35,818 nt of DNA from an uncultured Eubacteriales bacterium (GTDB lineage: Bacteria; Bacillota; Clostridia; Lachnospirales; Lachnospiraceae), in NCBI GenBank assembly GCA_900315425.1, contig OMZA01000016.1, forward strand, positions 1 through 35,818. The letters run 5' to 3'. Below, in pieces: positions 2,045 to 35,658 of the stretch. The notes beneath the pieces are model-generated. The model ran no database searches. It was not told the origin of the DNA and worked only from the letters and a program-made list of their open reading frames with translations. The stretch's first letter is position 1; every line of letters begins with the position of its first letter. Position numbers and translations under genes: made by a program.

Positions 2045-3982
2045 TTGATTGAAAAATTAAAATATGTCACTGTCTCAGGACCTAATAATGATATAGACCG
2101 AGTTATTGACTGTTATCTTTCAAAATATGAAATCCACCTGGAAAATTCCATGCAGGAGCTTTCCGCATCTTTATCGGATTTATCAGCCTTTCAGGAAGTT
2201 AATCCATATAAGGATGTACTTGCAAAGGGTAAAAAATATCTAGAATATATTGATACAAAAAAAATAAAAGCTAATCCTGATATGGATCTTGACGATGCTC
2301 TTTCCTTTATGGAAGAAGAGATTTTCCAGATAGATGATCTTAACACCAGAATAAACAATCTAAAAAAATCTCTTGAAGAGACAAGGGAAAAGTATAATGC
2401 TATACATCCTTTTGTGAACATTGATTACGATACAGATGCCATTTTGGCTCTTGATCATATTAAGTTTCGCTTTGGACGTATTCCGCTTATACACTATCCA
2501 AAACTTCAAGATTATGTAGAAAATAATGAAAGTTCTATTTTCATAAAATGTGATACCGACGAGGATTTTGTGTGGGGCGTATATTTCGTTCCAGAATCTG
2601 AGGCTAGAAAAATTGATGTTACTTATGCTTCTTTAAGATTTGAAAGAACATTTATTCCTGGTTACTTAGGCGGTACTCCTGATGAGGCTTGTGAAAAGCT
2701 TGAAGAAAAAATTAAAAACTTAGAAAAGCATATAGCCAATCAGGAACATGAAATTGAAAAGAACATAATTGAACATAAAACAGAGATTTATTCATCTTAC
2801 CTTAGAATAAAAAGAGCCAGTGACAACTTTGATGTTAGAAAGATGGCTACACATACAGTCTATAACACAGAAAACTACTATATTATATGTGGTTGGATTA
2901 ATTCTAAGGATGCAGACAAGTTAAAAGAGGAAACCAGCAATGACAAAAATGTAATCCTTATCCTTGAAGATACTAATGGAATGGATGATCAAACCCCTCC
3001 AACCAAACTTAAAAATCCAAAACTTTTCAAGCCTTTTGAAATGTTTACAAAAATGTATGGCTTACCGGCCTATGGAGAAATGGATCCAACTATTTTCATT
3101 GGAATAAGTTATTCATTTATATTTGGTGCCATGTTTGGAGATGTTGGACAAGGTCTTGTTCTTGTTCTTTTAGGCTTCCTTTTATATTTTACCAAGAAAA
3201 TGAATCTGGGATATATAATCGGTTGTTGCGGTATATTTTCTACAATCTTTGGTTTTATGTATGGAAGCTTTTTTGGATTTGAAGACATTATTAACCCCCT
3301 GTGGTTAAGCCCTACTCAAGCCAAAACCAAGATTCCAATTATTGGAGAACTTAACACAGTATTTGGCGTAGCAGTTATATTTGGTATGTTCTTAATTCTT
3401 TTAGCAATGATTTTCCATATTATAAATGCTGTAAGAAATAAGGATATCCTTAATACATTTTTTGATACAAATGCTTTATCCGGATTTATATTTTATGGTT
3501 CGTTAACTGCAATTGTTATACTTGCATGTACCCATAATCCAATCCCTGCAGGTTTTATCTTAGCAATAATGTTTGGTGTTCCCCTTTTATTAATTGCATT
3601 AAAGGAACCAATTACCGGACTTATTACTAAAGAAAAACCTCATGAAAAAACCAGTGTTGGAATGTTTATTACACAAACATTTTTTGAATTATTTGAAGTT
3701 GTCTTAAGTTATTTTTCCAACACATTATCCTTCATAAGAATTGGTGCCTTTGCACTAAGCCACGCTTCTATGATGGCCGTTGTTCTTATGTTAAGTAATG
3801 CTGAAAACAGCTTGGCTCACGCCAACTGGTTCATAATTATTCTTGGAAATATTTTTGTAATGGGACTTGAAGGTCTTGTGGTAGGAATTCAGGTGTTACG
3901 TCTTGAGTACTACGAAATGTTCAGCCGCTTCTACAAAGGTTCCGGAAGAGAGTTCATTGCCTTTAATAAAGGCGACAAATAA
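2045..3982 (+). CDS. ntpI: V-type ATPase subunit I (membrane stator)
   Basis: Subunit I (a-type stator), about 645 residues. The N-terminal half is soluble and coiled-coil rich. The C-terminal half (from about residue 345) carries some seven to eight hydrophobic segments, including SYSFIFGAMFGDVGQG and SFIRIGAFALSHA, which are characteristic of this family. It forms the ion half-channels against the K ring and anchors the stalks. Start choice: GGAGGTGA at 2032-2039 is ideally placed for TTG at 2045, giving MIEKLKYVTVSGP, the usual family beginning. The upstream ATG at 2030 overlaps that Shine-Dalgarno sequence and is probably not used. A TTG start may lower its output relative to the K ring subunit. 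Confidence 0.93.
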   Translation: MIEKLKYVTVSGPNNDIDRVIDCYLSKYEIHLENSMQELSASLSDLSAFQEVNPYKDVLAKGKKYLEYIDTKKIKANPDMDLDDALSFMEEEIFQIDDLNTRINNLKKSLEETREKYNAIHPFVNIDYDTDAILALDHIKFRFGRIPLIHYPKLQDYVENNESSIFIKCDTDEDFVWGVYFVPESEARKIDVTYASLRFERTFIPGYLGGTPDEACEKLEEKIKNLEKHIANQEHEIEKNIIEHKTEIYSSYLRIKRASDNFDVRKMATHTVYNTENYYIICGWINSKDADKLKEETSNDKNVILILEDTNGMDDQTPPTKLKNPKLFKPFEMFTKMYGLPAYGEMDPTIFIGISYSFIFGAMFGDVGQGLVLVLLGFLLYFTKKMNLGYIIGCCGIFSTIFGFMYGSFFGFEDIINPLWLSPTQAKTKIPIIGELNTVFGVAVIFGMFLILLAMIFHIINAVRNKDILNTFFDTNALSGFIFYGSLTAIVILACTHNPIPAGFILAIMFGVPLLLIALKEPITGLITKEKPHEKTSVGMFITQTFFELFEVVLSYFSNTLSFIRIGAFALSHASMMAVVLMLSNAENSLAHANWFIIILGNIFVMGLEGLVVGIQVLRLEYYEMFSRFYKGSGREFIAFNKGDK

Positions 3983-4019
3983 ATTGCTGGGAATCCCAGT
4001 CATCTAGGAGGTAATTATT

Positions 4020-4436
4020 ATGTCATTAACAATTTCAATTTTATTAGGAGTAGCCCTTACTCTTACAATCATCGTTCCATTTGCTGTATATGCAGCTGGA
4101 GAAAAAAATAAGGGTCGTTACAAAAAGGCATTAGCAGTTAATCTTTCATCCTTTGTGGTTGCCATGATTATTTCTCAGGGTTACGCATTTACTGCAACTG
4201 CTCAGGCTGCAAGCTCTTCTGCATCTAACGGTCTTGGTTACATTGGTGCAGCTCTTGCTGTAGGTTTTTCATGTATCGGTGGTGGTATTGCCGTTGCCAG
4301 TGCAGCCAGTGCAGCTTTAGGAGCTATTTCCGAAGACGATTCAATCCTTGGTAAATCCCTTATCTTTGTTGGACTTGCTGAAGGTATCGCTCTTTATGGA
4401 CTTATTATTGCATTTATGATTTTAAGTAAAATCTAA
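4020..4436 (+). CDS. ntpK: V-type ATPase subunit K (rotor ring proteolipid)
   Basis: Proteolipid of the membrane rotor ring, 138 residues with four hydrophobic helices (about 3-25, 38-60, 72-101, 113-136). The ion-binding carboxylate is Glu121 in GLAEGIALYG of the last helix. The first hairpin has no acidic residue mid-membrane, so one ion site per four-helix subunit is expected, as in Enterococcus hirae NtpK. Helix 3 (GGGIAVASAASAAL) lacks the glutamine that helps bind Na+ in E. hirae, so Na+ versus H+ specificity is open. A good AGGAGG precedes the ATG. A palindromic hairpin overlaps the stop codon. Confidence 0.95.
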   Translation: MSLTISILLGVALTLTIIVPFAVYAAGEKNKGRYKKALAVNLSSFVVAMIISQGYAFTATAQAASSSASNGLGYIGAALAVGFSCIGGGIAVASAASAALGAISEDDSILGKSLIFVGLAEGIALYGLIIAFMILSKI

Positions 4437-4451
4437 AAACCACGTGGTTTT
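4436..4451. promoter_or_regulatory. Perfect 16-bp palindrome after subunit K gene
   Basis: AAAACCACGTGGTTTT at 4436-4451 is a perfect palindrome starting at the last base of the K stop codon. In RNA it can fold as a six-bp stem with a four-base loop, ending in TTTTCT. It may stabilise the upstream mRNA or weakly terminate, helping to make more K than the downstream subunits. The central CACGTG resembles parS only in its core and the flanks do not match. Confidence 0.5.
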
Positions 4452-4491
4452 CTAAATATTAACCACGCATAAAGGAGATATGAGGTGTCCT

Positions 4492-4800
4492 ATGAAAATG
4501 TTTTTAATTAGCGATAACGTTGACACTCAGACAGGTTTAAGATTAGCCGGAATCGAAGGTGTTGTTTGCCACAGCAAGGACGAACTTAAACAAGCCTTTG
4601 ATGACGTACTTGATGACAAGGAAATTGGTATTATTCTCATTACTGAAAAATTAGAAAATCAATTTCCTGATATAATCGATGACATCAAACTTAAGCGTAC
4701 ACAACCACTTCTAGTTACAATTCCTGACCGACACGGTACTGGAAGACGAAGCGATTTTATAACTGCTTACGTAAATGAAGCCATTGGTTTAAAACTATAA
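4492..4800 (+). CDS. ntpF: V-type ATPase subunit F
   Basis: Subunit F, 102 residues, a small Rossmann-like protein of the central stalk that binds subunit D in the rotor. The opening MKMFLISDN...TGLRLAGIEGVV is typical of the family. I start at ATG 4492, which has AGGTG four bases before it and gives the usual family N-terminus. The in-frame ATG at 4480 also follows an AAAGGAG but at very short spacing, adding four atypical residues. It lies between K and E in the operon. Confidence 0.9.
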   Translation: MKMFLISDNVDTQTGLRLAGIEGVVCHSKDELKQAFDDVLDDKEIGIILITEKLENQFPDIIDDIKLKRTQPLLVTIPDRHGTGRRSDFITAYVNEAIGLKL

Positions 4801-12736: not shown

Positions 12737-12744
12737 AACTTAAA

Positions 12745-12818
12745 CGTTCCAGACTGGAATCGAACCAGCGACGTTCCGCTTAGGAGGCGGACCCTCTATC
12801 CTACTGAGGTACTGGAAC
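12745..12818 (-). tRNA. tRNA-Arg (anticodon CCU)
   Basis: A complete cloverleaf can be drawn on the minus strand: acceptor GTTCCAG with CTGGAAC, D stem CCTC/GAGG, anticodon stem TCCGC/GCGGA with loop CTCCTAA (anticodon CCT at 12784-12782), and T arm GCTGG-TTCGATT-CCAGT with one G-U pair. It reads AGG arginine codons. No CCA is encoded. Promoter and terminator are its own. Confidence 0.96.
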
Positions 12819-12829
12819 ACGCAAACTTG

Positions 12830-14209: not shown

Positions 14210-15091
14210 TTATTTCATTTTTTCGAAAAGGTCTATTAATCTTTCTAAATCTTCTGTTGAATAGTATTCAATTTCAATCTTACCTTTTCCACCTGGTTTA
14301 TTGTTGATTTTAACCTTTGTTCCAACAATATCCTTTATCTTTCCTTCAATATCTCTATATACGAAATCATTTTCAGGAACAGCCTTCTTTACTTTTTTCT
14401 TTGGTTCTAACAAAGCTTTTACAAGCTTCTCTGTTTCTCTAACACTTAATTTGTTTTTGATAATTTCCAAAGCTAAAGTATATTGCTTCTTCGCATCTTC
14501 CACAGGAATCAATGCTCTTGCATGACCACTACTTAATTCTCCACTTATAACAAGCTTCTGTACTTTAGAACTCAGTTTTAAAAGACGCATTGAATTTGTG
14601 ATGGAAGTTCTGCTTTTTGAAAGTCTTTCTGCCATCTCTTCCTGCTTAAGATTATACTCATCAATAAGTCGCTTGTATGCTTCTGCTTCCTCTATAGGAT
14701 TTAAGTCCTCTCTTTGAATATTTTCAATAAGAGCAATCTCAACTATTTCCTGTTCAGAGAAATTCTTAATAACTACCGGGATTTTCTTTAACTTTGCTAT
14801 CTTTGCAGCTCTCCATCTACGTTCACCAGCAATTATTTCATAGTAATCATCTATTTTCTGTACAACAATTGGTTGAATTACTCCATACTGCTTAATAGAA
14901 TCTGCTAATTCATTTAAAGCATCCTGGTCAAAATTCTTACGAGGCTGATTTTTATTTGGTTCAACCTGATTAATATCTAATTCAACAACTCCATTGTTAC
15001 TCTTAGAGGATGATTTTTTTACAGCTTCACCCTTTGGAATCAAAGAATCCAAGCCTTTTCCTAAACCTCTTTTAGTATTTTTAGCTGCCAT
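14210..15091 (-). CDS. parB: Chromosome partitioning protein ParB (Spo0J)
   Basis: 293 residues. It has a basic start (KRGLGKGLDSLIP), a ParB/Srx N-domain with the CTP-binding box GERRWRA (about 89-95), ENIQREDLNPIEEA, a helix-turn-helix (QEEMAERLSKSRTSITNSMRLL region) that reads parS, and a C-terminal dimerisation segment. It loads at parS as a CTP-dependent sliding clamp and guides origin segregation with ParA. TGGAGG precedes the ATG. It is 30 bases downstream of parA, with two matching parS sites nearby. Confidence 0.97.
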   Translation of the reverse strand: MAAKNTKRGLGKGLDSLIPKGEAVKKSSSKSNNGVVELDINQVEPNKNQPRKNFDQDALNELADSIKQYGVIQPIVVQKIDDYYEIIAGERRWRAAKIAKLKKIPVVIKNFSEQEIVEIALIENIQREDLNPIEEAEAYKRLIDEYNLKQEEMAERLSKSRTSITNSMRLLKLSSKVQKLVISGELSSGHARALIPVEDAKKQYTLALEIIKNKLSVRETEKLVKALLEPKKKVKKAVPENDFVYRDIEGKIKDIVGTKVKINNKPGGKGKIEIEYYSTEDLERLIDLFEKMK

Positions 15092-15121: not shown

Positions 15122-15979
15122 TTATTTCTTTTTTCTTTTAAGTAAACCTTTTTTCTTTTGAGGTTTCTTTTTATCAAATTGGCTTAAATCAAAGGAATTA
15201 ACATCGAATTCCTTACCCATTTCATTATAAATAACTTCCTGTGCCAATAATCTATAACTTTCTGCGCCAATTGACTTAGAATCATATAGATTTATTGGGA
15301 GTCCGTAGCTAGGAGCCTCAGCAAGTCTTATATTTCTTGGGATAATTGTTTTATAAACTGTCTGTCTGAGATTAGCTTTAACATTTTCTACAACTTCCAA
15401 TGAAAGATTTGTTCTGGCATCATACATTGTAAACACTACACCCTCAATGTCTAATTCAGGATTTAATCTTTCCTGAACCAGATTAATTGTATGAATAAGC
15501 TGAGATAAACCTTCCAGTGCATAATATTCACATTGAATAGGAACTAAAACCGAATCTGCAGTTGTCATTGCATTAACAGTTAGAATATTTAAGGATGGTG
15601 GACAGTCAATTATTATAAAATCATATTCATCTCTAATAGAATCAATCTCATTCTTTAAAATATATTCTCTATCATCTACACCTATTAAATCTATTTCTGC
15701 ACCAGAGAGATTAACATTTGAAGGCAGAACCCATAGATTACTAACCTGAGATTCAACTATACAATCTTCTAAGGTACAATTACCAATAAATAATTCGTAT
15801 GATGTATTTTCCAATTGATTCTTGTCTACACCAACTCCACTTGTGGCATTACCCTGAGGGTCAATATCAACAAGTAATATTTTTTTACCTACTTCTGCAA
15901 GACATGATGTTAAGTTAATAGCCGTGGTGGTTTTACCAACACCACCTTTTTGGTTTGCAATAGCTATAATCTTACCCAT
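15122..15979 (-). CDS. parA: Chromosome partitioning ATPase ParA (Soj)
   Basis: 285 residues. The deviant Walker A KGGVGKTT is near residue 10, LLVDIDPQGNATSGVG follows, and IIDCPPSLNILT is Walker B-like. It is a DNA-binding ATPase that works with ParB-parS in origin segregation and, in Bacillus, modulates DnaA. The C-terminal tail of ~15 residues is unusually Lys-rich (KKKPQKKKGLLKRKKK), which may help bind DNA. A clear AAGGAG precedes the ATG. The gene lies just downstream of a 42-bp palindrome that holds parS. Confidence 0.97.
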   Translation of the reverse strand: MGKIIAIANQKGGVGKTTTAINLTSCLAEVGKKILLVDIDPQGNATSGVGVDKNQLENTSYELFIGNCTLEDCIVESQVSNLWVLPSNVNLSGAEIDLIGVDDREYILKNEIDSIRDEYDFIIIDCPPSLNILTVNAMTTADSVLVPIQCEYYALEGLSQLIHTINLVQERLNPELDIEGVVFTMYDARTNLSLEVVENVKANLRQTVYKTIIPRNIRLAEAPSYGLPINLYDSKSIGAESYRLLAQEVIYNEMGKEFDVNSFDLSQFDKKKPQKKKGLLKRKKK

Positions 15980-16035: not shown

Positions 16036-16077
16036 CTAATAAAAAAAATGTTTCACGTGAAACATTTTTTTTATTAG
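16036..16077. repeat. Perfect 42-bp palindrome centred on parS
   Basis: The dyad centre lies between 16056 and 16057, and every base from 16036 to 16077 pairs with its mirror. The core is a parS site; the arms add eight A (left), eight T (right) and CTAAT/ATTAG ends. In RNA it would make a long hairpin and could act as a terminator after the upstream HATPase gene as well as a ParB site. Confidence 0.9.
16049..16064. promoter_or_regulatory. parS: parS site 1
   Basis: TGTTTCACGTGAAACA is a perfect copy of the Bacillus-type parS consensus, bound by ParB. It is intergenic, 70 bases upstream of the parA start. Confidence 0.96.
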
Positions 16078-16085
16078 GTATTTAA

Positions 16086-17216
16086 TTAAAATTCGTATAC
16101 TAGCGTAACTACAGTTCCTAAGCCAACTGTTGATTCTATATTAAACTTAGCGTTTATCAGTTTTGATCTATATTTCATCATTTGAATGCCATACATATTA
16201 TTTTCTATTAATATATTATCTTTTTGTTTAACAAAACCTTCTCCATTATCAGATATCTTTACATTAACTCTGAATTTATTAATATCCTGGACAATAAAAT
16301 TTAATTCTCTCATTTCCGCTGTTGAATCATTATTGTTCTCATCATTAACTTGATTTTCTGCAATGAGATTATCAATTTCTACAGAAACATTTATTTTTGA
16401 ACATCCTGCATGCGTATTTGCATTTTCGATAGCTTCTTTAATAATTCTAATGATATTTACAACTCTATTTCCGGAATCACTAATTTTGAAACCATTGTAA
16501 CTATATTCAATCTTATTATCTAGTTTCTGATTATAAACATCTATAAAATCTTTAATCTGCTTATAAATACCAACACTTCCATCAAAATGTTTCACGTGAA
16601 ACATTTTTGTGTTAAATTTTCTATTTAAGGCATTTATATTTTCTTCCAACTTTAATAATTCTACCTTTGTTCTTTCCTGATCTACATTTACAAAACTATT
16701 ACATAAAGAAATCTTATCTGATAACTTGGATATTTCTTTTTCGATGTCATTACTAAAGTATTTATCACATTTATTAATTTCATATTCTAAAATATTTATA
16801 AATTCGTTATAGTTTTCTTCCTTTGTCTTTTTAACTTCTTTAGATACAGTTTTCTTAGTTCCCTTTATACTTTCAGCTAACTGTAGTTCTGTATTCTCCA
16901 CATCTTCAAAGGCTTCATCTATCTTAACAATTTTATTTTCTAAATTTTCCACTCTTTTTTCTAATTCCTGAATTCTGTTAAGATATTCCTTTTTCTTAGC
17001 ATTTAACTTTTCAATTTCAATTTCATTTTTATCCTTATCATACACATTAGGAGTAAAAACTGAAAAAGTATTATCTATGTTATTACTAATTTCTTCTTTT
17101 AGTTTTTCAATTTCTTCTATTTTAAAGTGACACTGGGAAATTTTATCATTGAATTTATTTATATTTTCTTCTGTTCTTCTTTTTTCTCCATTGAGAAATG
17201 ATACTATATTTTCCAA
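16086..17216 (-). CDS. Soluble coiled-coil HATPase (histidine-kinase-like) protein carrying parS in its gene
   Basis: 376 residues, not a recognised named protein. Residues 1 to about 200 are charged heptad-like coiled coil. The C-terminal ~130 residues have the GHKL ATPase boxes of DegS/NarX-type sensor kinases: an N box EAIENANTHA, then SDNGEGF, and MYGIQMMKYR...GLGTVV. No membrane helix is seen, and no H-box with a phospho-accepting His is evident at the junction; that place reads KMFHVKHFDG, which is the parS sequence translated. So it may bind ATP without being a kinase. The start is TTG 17216, with GGAGGTG well placed upstream. It sits between rsmG and parA on the same strand. Confidence 0.72.
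   Translation of the reverse strand: MENIVSFLNGEKRRTEENINKFNDKISQCHFKIEEIEKLKEEISNNIDNTFSVFTPNVYDKDKNEIEIEKLNAKKKEYLNRIQELEKRVENLENKIVKIDEAFEDVENTELQLAESIKGTKKTVSKEVKKTKEENYNEFINILEYEINKCDKYFSNDIEKEISKLSDKISLCNSFVNVDQERTKVELLKLEENINALNRKFNTKMFHVKHFDGSVGIYKQIKDFIDVYNQKLDNKIEYSYNGFKISDSGNRVVNIIRIIKEAIENANTHAGCSKINVSVEIDNLIAENQVNDENNNDSTAEMRELNFIVQDINKFRVNVKISDNGEGFVKQKDNILIENNMYGIQMMKYRSKLINAKFNIESTVGLGTVVTLVYEF
16588..16603. promoter_or_regulatory. parS: parS site 2 (inside the HATPase gene)
   Basis: A second perfect TGTTTCACGTGAAACA, with AAAA and TTTT extending the palindrome. It lies within a reading frame and is translated as part of MFHVKHF. It is 539 bases from site 1. Confidence 0.96.
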
Positions 17217-17237: not shown

Positions 17238-18005
17238 TTATAATGGATTCTTACTAGGGGTTCCGGCTTTTCTAGGATATGCCTTCGGTGTATTATTATT
17301 TTTCTTAATAAATACGAATTTACGAATAACTTCTTCTGTATTACCATTTTGAGAATTATAATCTTCTAATTTAATTTCAATTATTTTTTCTATTTTACAA
17401 TTTAATGTCTTTATAGCATTTTTAGAAGAATCAATTTCCTCTTCAGAATTACCCGCTTTATAAGATATAAAGCAGCCTCCTTTTTTAACAAATGGTGTAC
17501 AGTATTCAGATAAAGTAGCAAGATTAGCCACTGCTCTGGACACACTATAATCAAAGGACTCTCTTAGATTCGAATTTCTTGCTGCTTCTTCTGCTCTGCC
17601 ATGAATGCATTCTACATTTTCTAATTCAAGGCATTCCACAACATTTTTCAAAAAATTAATTCTTTTATTTAATGAATCTAACAATACCAACTTTATGTTA
17701 GGACATAATATTTTCAAAGGAATTCCTGGAAATCCTCCACCTGTACCAACATCTATAACTGAAACAGCTTTTTTATTAAAGATATCGTTTTTTTCTTTTA
17801 ATATAAGGCAGGAATCCACAAAATGTTTAATTACAACATCTTTAAATTCTACTATTCTTGTGAGATTAACTACTTTGTTTGTTTCTACAAGCATTTCATA
17901 ATATTTCAGGAATTGATTAACCTGCTTATCTGTTAAATCAATTCCAATATTATTAAAGGATTTTCTTAAAAAATCTACCTGTGCTTCTTCAAATGTATAT
18001 TCCAT
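17238..18005 (-). CDS. rsmG: 16S rRNA (guanine-N7)-methyltransferase RsmG (GidB)
   Basis: 255 residues. It methylates N7 of G527 (E. coli numbering) in the 530 loop of 16S rRNA with S-adenosylmethionine. The SAM-binding motif VIDVGTGGGFPGIPLKI lies near residue 85, followed by LLDSLNKRINFLKNV and SRAVANLATL, all typical. The C-terminal ~20 residues (KAYPRKAGTPSKNPL) also match the family. It stands 26 bases downstream of mnmG as in many Firmicutes origins. Loss of rsmG elsewhere gives low-level streptomycin resistance (known of the family). Confidence 0.97.
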   Translation of the reverse strand: MEYTFEEAQVDFLRKSFNNIGIDLTDKQVNQFLKYYEMLVETNKVVNLTRIVEFKDVVIKHFVDSCLILKEKNDIFNKKAVSVIDVGTGGGFPGIPLKILCPNIKLVLLDSLNKRINFLKNVVECLELENVECIHGRAEEAARNSNLRESFDYSVSRAVANLATLSEYCTPFVKKGGCFISYKAGNSEEEIDSSKNAIKTLNCKIEKIIEIKLEDYNSQNGNTEEVIRKFVFIKKNNNTPKAYPRKAGTPSKNPL

Positions 18006-35529: not shown

Positions 35530-35617
35530 GGAGAAATACTCAAGAGGCTGAAGAGGCGCCCCTGCTAAGGGTGTAGGTCGCTCACGCGGCGCGAGGGTTC
35601 AAATCCCTCTTTCTCCG
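35530..35617 (+). tRNA. tRNA-Ser (anticodon GCU)
   Basis: Class II tRNA, 88 bases. Acceptor GGAGAAA (35530-35536) pairs with TTTCTCC (35610-35616), discriminator G. The anticodon stem encloses loop CTGCTAA with anticodon GCT at 35564-35566. A long variable arm follows, as in all tRNA-Ser. T arm GAGGG-TTCAAAT-CCCTC. It reads AGC/AGU. No CCA is encoded. Confidence 0.97.
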
Positions 35618-35658
35618 CTCACTATTTTAATATATTTAAAAAAAATATAAAAAAATAG

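Follow-up and report, generated by a model that had tools for sequence, protein, structure and literature searches.

A gene lying between rsmG and parA in an uncultured member of the Lachnospiraceae very probably descends locally from degS, that is, from a cytosolic NarL/DesK-type sensor kinase that in this order once had its place near parAB alongside a degU-like regulator. The phospho-accepting histidine and the regulator at the locus have both been lost in the genus of this bacterium, a parS site inside the coding sequence and the residues of the ATP site are conserved there, and loss of the H-box at this slot recurs in parallel across the family. From these observations we infer ATP binding, dimerisation, a partner and a function for the protein. 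The explanation that we consider best overall, with a probability of roughly 40%, is that this descendant of DegS serves as a non-phosphorylating scaffold, perhaps touching SMC-ScpAB. What stands out is that DegS-type kinases beside parAB have lost phosphotransfer again and again, mostly with retention of the coil and the hairpin.

The window (the whole stretch of 35,818 nucleotides that was analysed) holds a 376-aa open reading frame at 16086-17216 on the minus strand, with a TTG start codon at 17214-17216 that is preceded by GGAGGT. The frame starts 21 bp past rsmG (17238-18005, minus strand), with which it perhaps shares a transcription unit, and stops 106 bp ahead of parA (15122-15979, minus strand); parB follows at 14210-15091 (minus strand). 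The frame and its neighbours agree with an earlier, sequence-only reading of this DNA, which had placed the gene between rsmG and parA, and no partner response regulator was found at the window locus, as that reading had also stated. The window also contains tRNA-Arg (CCT) at 12744-12819 and tRNA-Ser (GCT) at 35530-35618. Apart from passages on DegS and SMC, no literature on such a parAB-side locus or its proteins was found among open-licence papers.

The encoded protein begins with an antiparallel coiled coil (16779-17207, minus strand), the loop motif of which, F-[ST]-P (here FTP), is common to intact kinases and to most of the coil-only relatives described below. This coil is followed by a DHp-like helical hairpin (16605-16778, minus strand) with the turn motif LC(x)4VNVDxxRxKxEL and by a Bergerat/GHKL ATPase domain (16092-16577, minus strand) that was recognised from motifs, AlphaFold and Foldseek. 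The AlphaFold model (numbered without the start residue; 11 sequences; mean pLDDT 78.6 but pTM only 0.41) places helices at 3-46, 57-174 and 179-203, then an alpha/beta ATPase, and the stretch 205-210 (FHVKHF) is of low confidence. The top Foldseek match was the ATP-binding domain of VraS (E 4e-10), and VraS and DesK were the nearest solved structures both by sequence and by fold. The HATPase_c match had an E value of 2.7e-4 and 21.8 bits, below the gathering score of 26.4. The ATPase motifs are kept, namely N265 and H269 of the N-box, the G1 box D323-N-G-x-G-F, glycine 343 of G2 and G367-T368, and an acidic ATP-lid insert occupies approximately residues 287-311. The protein is likely to bind ATP, a prediction made because no genus member departs from the Asn and His of the N-box, the Asp and glycines of G1, the glycine of G2 or the GT pair. 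The coiled coil and GHKL ATPase of the sequence-only reading were borne out by the AlphaFold model and the VraS match. Its claim that a phospho-histidine is missing also held, as Ser155 (codon at 16752-16754, minus strand) aligns with the phospho-accepting histidine and HisKA_3 gave no match at E<=1; the DegS sensor domain PF05384 likewise gave no match at E<=1. At the histidine position the eight genus proteins have S, N, S, K, S, S, G, S, whereas two aligned intact kinases have H, and the loss of this residue predicts that the window protein does not autophosphorylate.

The gene is present in seven of the eight other genomes of the genus. The eighth (G007, a bin 83% complete) yielded neither the gene nor parA, so that the missing gene says nothing there. 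The seven relatives encode proteins 31-44% identical to the window protein and share with it the position, the lack of an H-box and the lack of an adjacent regulator, which extends what had been read from the window to its orthologs. The length differences within the genus come mostly from the acidic, Asn-rich ATP-lid insert. As a test for a pseudogene, we found the reading frame open in all eight members, and dN was lower than dS in the tested pairs, in which dS is near saturation, except in the lid insert, which was near parity (dN/dS 0.82/1.05 and 0.81/1.12). In the closest genus pair, dN/dS (NG86) was 0.34/1.22 for the gene, 0.13/1.91 for its hairpin part and 0.04/1.28 for parA. By these sequence comparisons, the gene is under loose purifying selection, which is strongest on the hairpin.

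The parS sequence TGTTTCACGTGAAACA is found without mismatch at two places in the window, 539 bp apart. The first site (16588-16603) lies in the gene, at the centre of a 24-bp perfect palindrome; the second (16049-16064), absent from the earlier reading, lies between the gene and parA. Site no. 1 is read as the codons ATG TTT CAC GTG AAA CAT, giving MFHVKH (residues 205-210), or MFHVKHF with the next residue. Its position is that of IFDIRPM/IYDLRPM of intact kinases, in the DHp-ATPase linker about 50 residues past the H-box. The perfect in-gene parS claimed from the sequence is thus present, and its place is corrected to the former IYDLRPM linker. An overwriting of the H-box by parS was considered and rejected, as the alignment sets parS some 50 residues later. 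MFHVKH nearly keeps the linker pattern F-x-[IVL]-[RK], so that the origin of parS at this point may have disturbed the fold little.

All seven genus relatives carry the in-gene parS without mismatch at the same codons, as well as at least one additional parS between the gene and parA. A codon alignment of the eight members (358 ungapped columns) contained 42 identical amino acids and 17 identical codons, and nowhere outside the six parS codons were two or more successive codons shared by all eight. The chance of the four free parS codons is 0.014 per sequence under the codon usage of the window and 2e-15 over eight, a figure that serves as a guide only, given that the eight sequences share descent. 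Shuffled windows gave a mean of 0.21 parS matches at up to three mismatches. The genome (2.05 Mb, 96% complete) held no parS beyond these two at up to two mismatches, and a backward-read control had zero matches at the same tolerance. A chance origin of the site was rejected on the basis of the shuffles, the genome-wide count and the codon conservation.

Around site no. 2, a 42-bp perfect palindrome (16036-16077) forms a terminator-like hairpin past the gene end (RNA fold -19.5 kcal/mol, z -7.6); it has A/T tracts and is a possible bidirectional intrinsic terminator. Among the 276 perfect parS sites of the fetched family loci, 33 lie within perfect palindromes of at least 30 bp, up to 52 bp (L022). 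The median position of these 276 sites is about 210 bp before parA, and parS with up to one mismatch occurs in 173 of 200 family genomes, mostly as two or three sites, so that a pair of sites beside parA is close to what is usual in the family. One locus (L049) has seven sites within one mismatch of parS, spaced 121-123 bp apart and 1.1-1.8 kb before parA. A parS within coding DNA is ordinary in itself: in the passages available from two papers on Pseudomonas aeruginosa, nine of ten parS sites lie in coding sequences (PMC4368675), and the neighbours of intragenic parS are not repressed at the native ParB level (PMC5521831).

Descent from DegS is indicated by what other relatives hold in the same slot, namely an H-box kinase (the H-box reading, for example, RQRIARDLHD) with a NarL-type regulator after it. 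A profile comparison of the eight genus proteins with six order-level DegS proteins of the same locus extended over 340 columns (E 4e-20) and set MFHVKH over IYDLRP. In the order (40 of the 48 places outside the family were fetched, several of these loci being cut short), an H-box kinase and a regulator gene stand near parA in 10 of 40 loci, and all ten kinases have the H-box. The six order-level kinases that were tested all match PF05384 (E 4e-53 to 6e-10), HisKA_3 and HATPase_c; the order alignment took in six of the ten. From these pairs and DegS matches, an intact DegS with its regulator is likely to be the old state, with the proviso that the coil model, being derived from family proteins, might overlook remnants in the wider order. 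PF05384 gave no match in four scanned family-level intact kinases, and the match of family kinases to the order DegS profile covers only the H-box onward. Six order loci (L189, L193, L209, L210, L213 and L223) have a second ParB-like gene of 261-282 aa, perhaps Noc, after rsmG; none was seen in that slot in the family loci inspected for it.

The family locus regulator had six weak matches in the window genome, the best of which reached 24% identity over a 124-aa frame (E 1.4e-11), and the four listed of these six covered little beyond the receiver. The other genus genomes contained distant NarL-type regulators, at no more than 37% identity among the matches listed; for comparison, the locus regulators of four other relatives showed 55-65% identity. 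A move of the regulator to another place was therefore rejected, the best matches in G000 and G002 having E values of 1.4e-11 and 1.8e-9 and those listed being approximately receiver-only. The sequence-only reading had proposed a candidate for an undescribed factor. This is refuted in part, because a clear H-box and a cognate regulator occupy the slot in 29 of 141 family loci and 10 of 40 order loci, which makes the window protein a decayed two-component sensor of known descent.

The family was represented by 141 classed loci, consisting of the window and 140 loci fetched around parA (7 from the genus and 133 from other relatives). The 133 were taken from the places listed, by ParA similarity and with some contig-end loci passed over, and are thus a non-random sample. 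At E<=1e-100, parA was found in 170 of 200 family genomes, of which 135 were classed (including G004 and the window); the six remaining genus loci came from the gene search in the genus and not from the 170 parA genomes. H-box kinases were found at 29 of the 141 loci, with a regulator in 29/29, and genes without an H-box at 33, with a regulator in three (L044, L055 and L150). The association between H-box and regulator has a Fisher p of 1.2e-14, for rows that share descent and with 8 of the 33 H-box-less loci belonging to one genus. The H-box-less genes comprise 10 with a recognisable ATPase (the eight of the genus, L104 and L181; regulator in 0/10) and 23 that are coil-only (regulator in 3/23). 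At 75 further loci no such gene was found within 4 kb before parA, and 20 of these were also without rsmG in the fetched stretch. Restricting the count to the 112 classed loci with rsmG upstream leaves 27 with an H-box, 9 H-box-less with ATPase, 21 coil-only and 55 with none. It should be noted that some classes were set by hand: L183 as an H-box kinase (missed by the pattern), L055 and L075 as coil-only, and L104 as H-box-less with HATPase. Locus L064 was counted as being without the gene despite a kinase gene farther upstream, and four loci with less than 1.5 kb before parA (L029, L033, L065 and L107) were left unclassed, L033 holding a coil-only gene.

A FastTree phylogeny of ParA, ParB and RsmG (141 rows) required 13 switches between presence and absence of the H-box among the carriers, counted, like the other tree changes, without direction. 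The coil-only label required 15 changes, 11 of them forced by well-supported branches, and the label for H-box-less genes with ATPase required 3. By this sequence-based tree, the H-box losses in the family are repeated and parallel. Since the gene was not found in 75 of the 141 loci, it is hardly a core segregation factor; a part in segregation, as proposed in the earlier reading, is possible. A reverse loss was also observed, in which H-box kinases with a regulator have no N-terminal coil (L036, L056, L059, L060, L063, L084, L153 and L183). These 8 of 29 H-box kinases count against a simple account in which the coil is what matters.

The coil-only proteins are mostly short (18/23 with 129-236 aa; the longer ones are L030, L055, L075, L108 and L158). 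They were aligned as 17 of the 23 rows plus L033, leaving aside L030, L055, L075, L108, L150 and L158 and with later starts assigned to L074, L096 and L145. The [FL]-[ST]-P loop motif was present in 15 of these 18 proteins, and 16 of the 18 reach a hairpin turn, approximately K-x-E-x-x-x-x-L-x-x-x-D-x-x-R-x-K-x-E-L, near the C-terminus. Compared as profiles, the 18 coil-only proteins and 16 of the 29 intact family kinases matched across coil and hairpin (E 1.2e-22). Among 1198 family-locus genes, the coil model matched 44 before parA (between rsmG and parA or in the last 4 kb) and one elsewhere, an intact kinase beyond the interval rule. Generic coiled-coil matching was consequently rejected, the model being specific for the slot before parA. 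No family was found for the three coil-only proteins scanned with Pfam or the two scanned with NCBIfam. A coil-only trio, from three species of another genus in which the gene was found in 5 of 11 genomes, had dN of 0.21-0.27 and dS of 1.8-2.1 in two pairs, the third not being computable. A further genus had matches in 4 of 8 genomes, one being a long H-box-less form and three being short forms, and in two of the short forms a parS at the 3' end codes VSRET.

The median distance from gene end to parA is 997 bp at H-box loci, where it includes the regulator, and 195 bp where the gene is coil-only, so that a gene that has lost its regulator tends to come into the zone of clustered parS. None of the 29 H-box genes has a perfect in-gene parS; such sites are present in the genus, in L055, in L093 and in the pair L233/L234, and most carriers have no perfect parS inside the gene. 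A link between regulator loss and in-gene parS is suggestive, with only three or four independent events, and the in-gene sites of the genus lie 624-3574 bp before parA, farther than the family median. Genes L233, L234 and L093 are coil-only genes that end on parS in another frame (VSRET[FL]). Locus L055 has at 3760-4563 (along parA) a DegU-like gene with the receiver acidic residues replaced (VEPYY, ITELC) and an intact LuxR-type HTH; this pseudo-receiver adjoins a degenerate kinase gene carrying parS read as MFHVKH. The L145 frame starts on a near-parS only through its first possible ATG.

ParB loads SMC at parS. In B. subtilis, SMC-ScpA-ScpB is reported to bind to the sensing domain of DegS and so to inhibit the kinase (PMC3033389, PMC2245950). 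In the genus of the window, the regulator was very probably lost, the histidine replaced (mostly by Ser) and parS created at the linker between hairpin and ATPase, while the ATP-site motifs, the coil and the hairpin motif were kept. We tentatively propose that the protein would form a coiled-coil dimer in which ATP, without any phosphotransfer, would switch the conformation of the ATPase domains, and the coil would retain the binding role of the former sensor domain. Its likeliest partner would be SMC-ScpA-ScpB, with ParB or ParA as alternatives; the coil would bind the SMC machinery where this is loaded, and the former readout would now be a structural or ATP-gated partner. Because the coil-only relatives have no ATPase, the function common to these proteins cannot be an ATP switch. 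Moreover, the coil is unmatched by PF05384 and the family-to-order match begins only at the H-box, so that the surface that binds SMC may have been lost.

Among the other explanations, an allosteric pseudokinase that steers another kinase or regulator, with two-component signalling rather than segregation as its output, is unlikely, although the ATP site and the DHp hairpin are retained and DivL is described, in the part of the source available, as a repurposed histidine kinase (PMC4211667). The genome has no close relative of the locus regulator among the matches listed, and the coil-only relatives, which have neither ATPase nor H-box, argue against regulator docking as the common denominator. 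It is somewhat less probable still that these genes are the remnants of an unneeded two-component pair, caught at various stages of decay and without a notable role. Such decay would fit the 75 loci in which the gene was not found, the many stages seen (in one genus, three short forms and a long one that has no H-box) and the fast evolution (dN of 0.34 against 0.04 for parA in one pair), but not the open frames of 8/8 genus members at 31-44% identity with invariant ATP-site residues, the clear excess of dS over dN everywhere but in the lid insert, or the two motifs kept alike by coil-only forms in separate lineages.

The gene could also be kept for its DNA, with MFHVKHF as a by-product of parS no. 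1. The uniquely long run of identical codons in the genus, the parS sites inside other remnants (L055, L093, L233 and L234) and two loci (L021 and L022) in which gene and parS stay although inserted genes now separate them from parA are all in keeping with this. However, 25 of the 42 invariant residues, those of the ATP site included, have varying codons, and most carriers hold no perfect in-gene parS, so we judge a role of the DNA by itself improbable. That the protein has kept kinase activity by way of a new acceptor, for example His207 or His210 of MFHVKH, is scarcely credible: both histidines (206 and 209 without the start residue) are invariant in 8/8 and adjoin the ATPase domain, but parS explains this invariance, they lie just past the second hairpin helix rather than at the acceptor position, and no close regulator is encoded in the genome among the matches listed.

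Returning to the non-phosphorylating scaffold, a broader form of it would be that degS beside parAB repeatedly became a non-kinase coil protein working with ParB, parS and SMC, and hence a new class of segregation accessory. We regard this generalisation as doubtful. If true, an accessory class would have come out of a two-component sensor as phosphotransfer was lost in parallel, laying bare a chromosome-linked role already present in DegS; should the remnants still bind SMC or ParB, this chromosome link would be the older or more lasting part. The short coil-only proteins would be simple tools for probing it, and the set of loci offers a natural series of steps from kinase to non-enzyme. The gene is also a clear case of one stretch of DNA that is both centromere site and protein code.

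Among known systems, DegS (PF05384, HisKA_3 and HATPase_c; DegS-DegU in B. subtilis) shares the coil, the DHp hairpin and the Bergerat ATPase, and the window protein matches order-level DegS of the same locus over most of its length as a profile. Unlike DegS, it has no phospho-accepting histidine and no regulator at the locus, its linker is rewritten as parS, and its sensor domain is not recognised by PF05384. VraS and DesK provide the closest solved structures, whereas DesK, VraS and LiaS keep the histidine and the regulator and are membrane-linked. DivL of Caulobacter belongs to another kinase class and another phylum, and in it Tyr replaces His. The likeness to DivL lies in the repurposing of a histidine kinase, as described in the available part of PMC4211667. 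KfrA, in the passages available from PMC7783346, is an alpha-helical protein that is encoded near a parAB system and binds ParA and ParB homologues. It differs from the window protein in binding DNA by its own HTH. We know of no DHp or ATPase ancestry for KfrA, which resembles the window protein by analogy, as a coil beside parAB.
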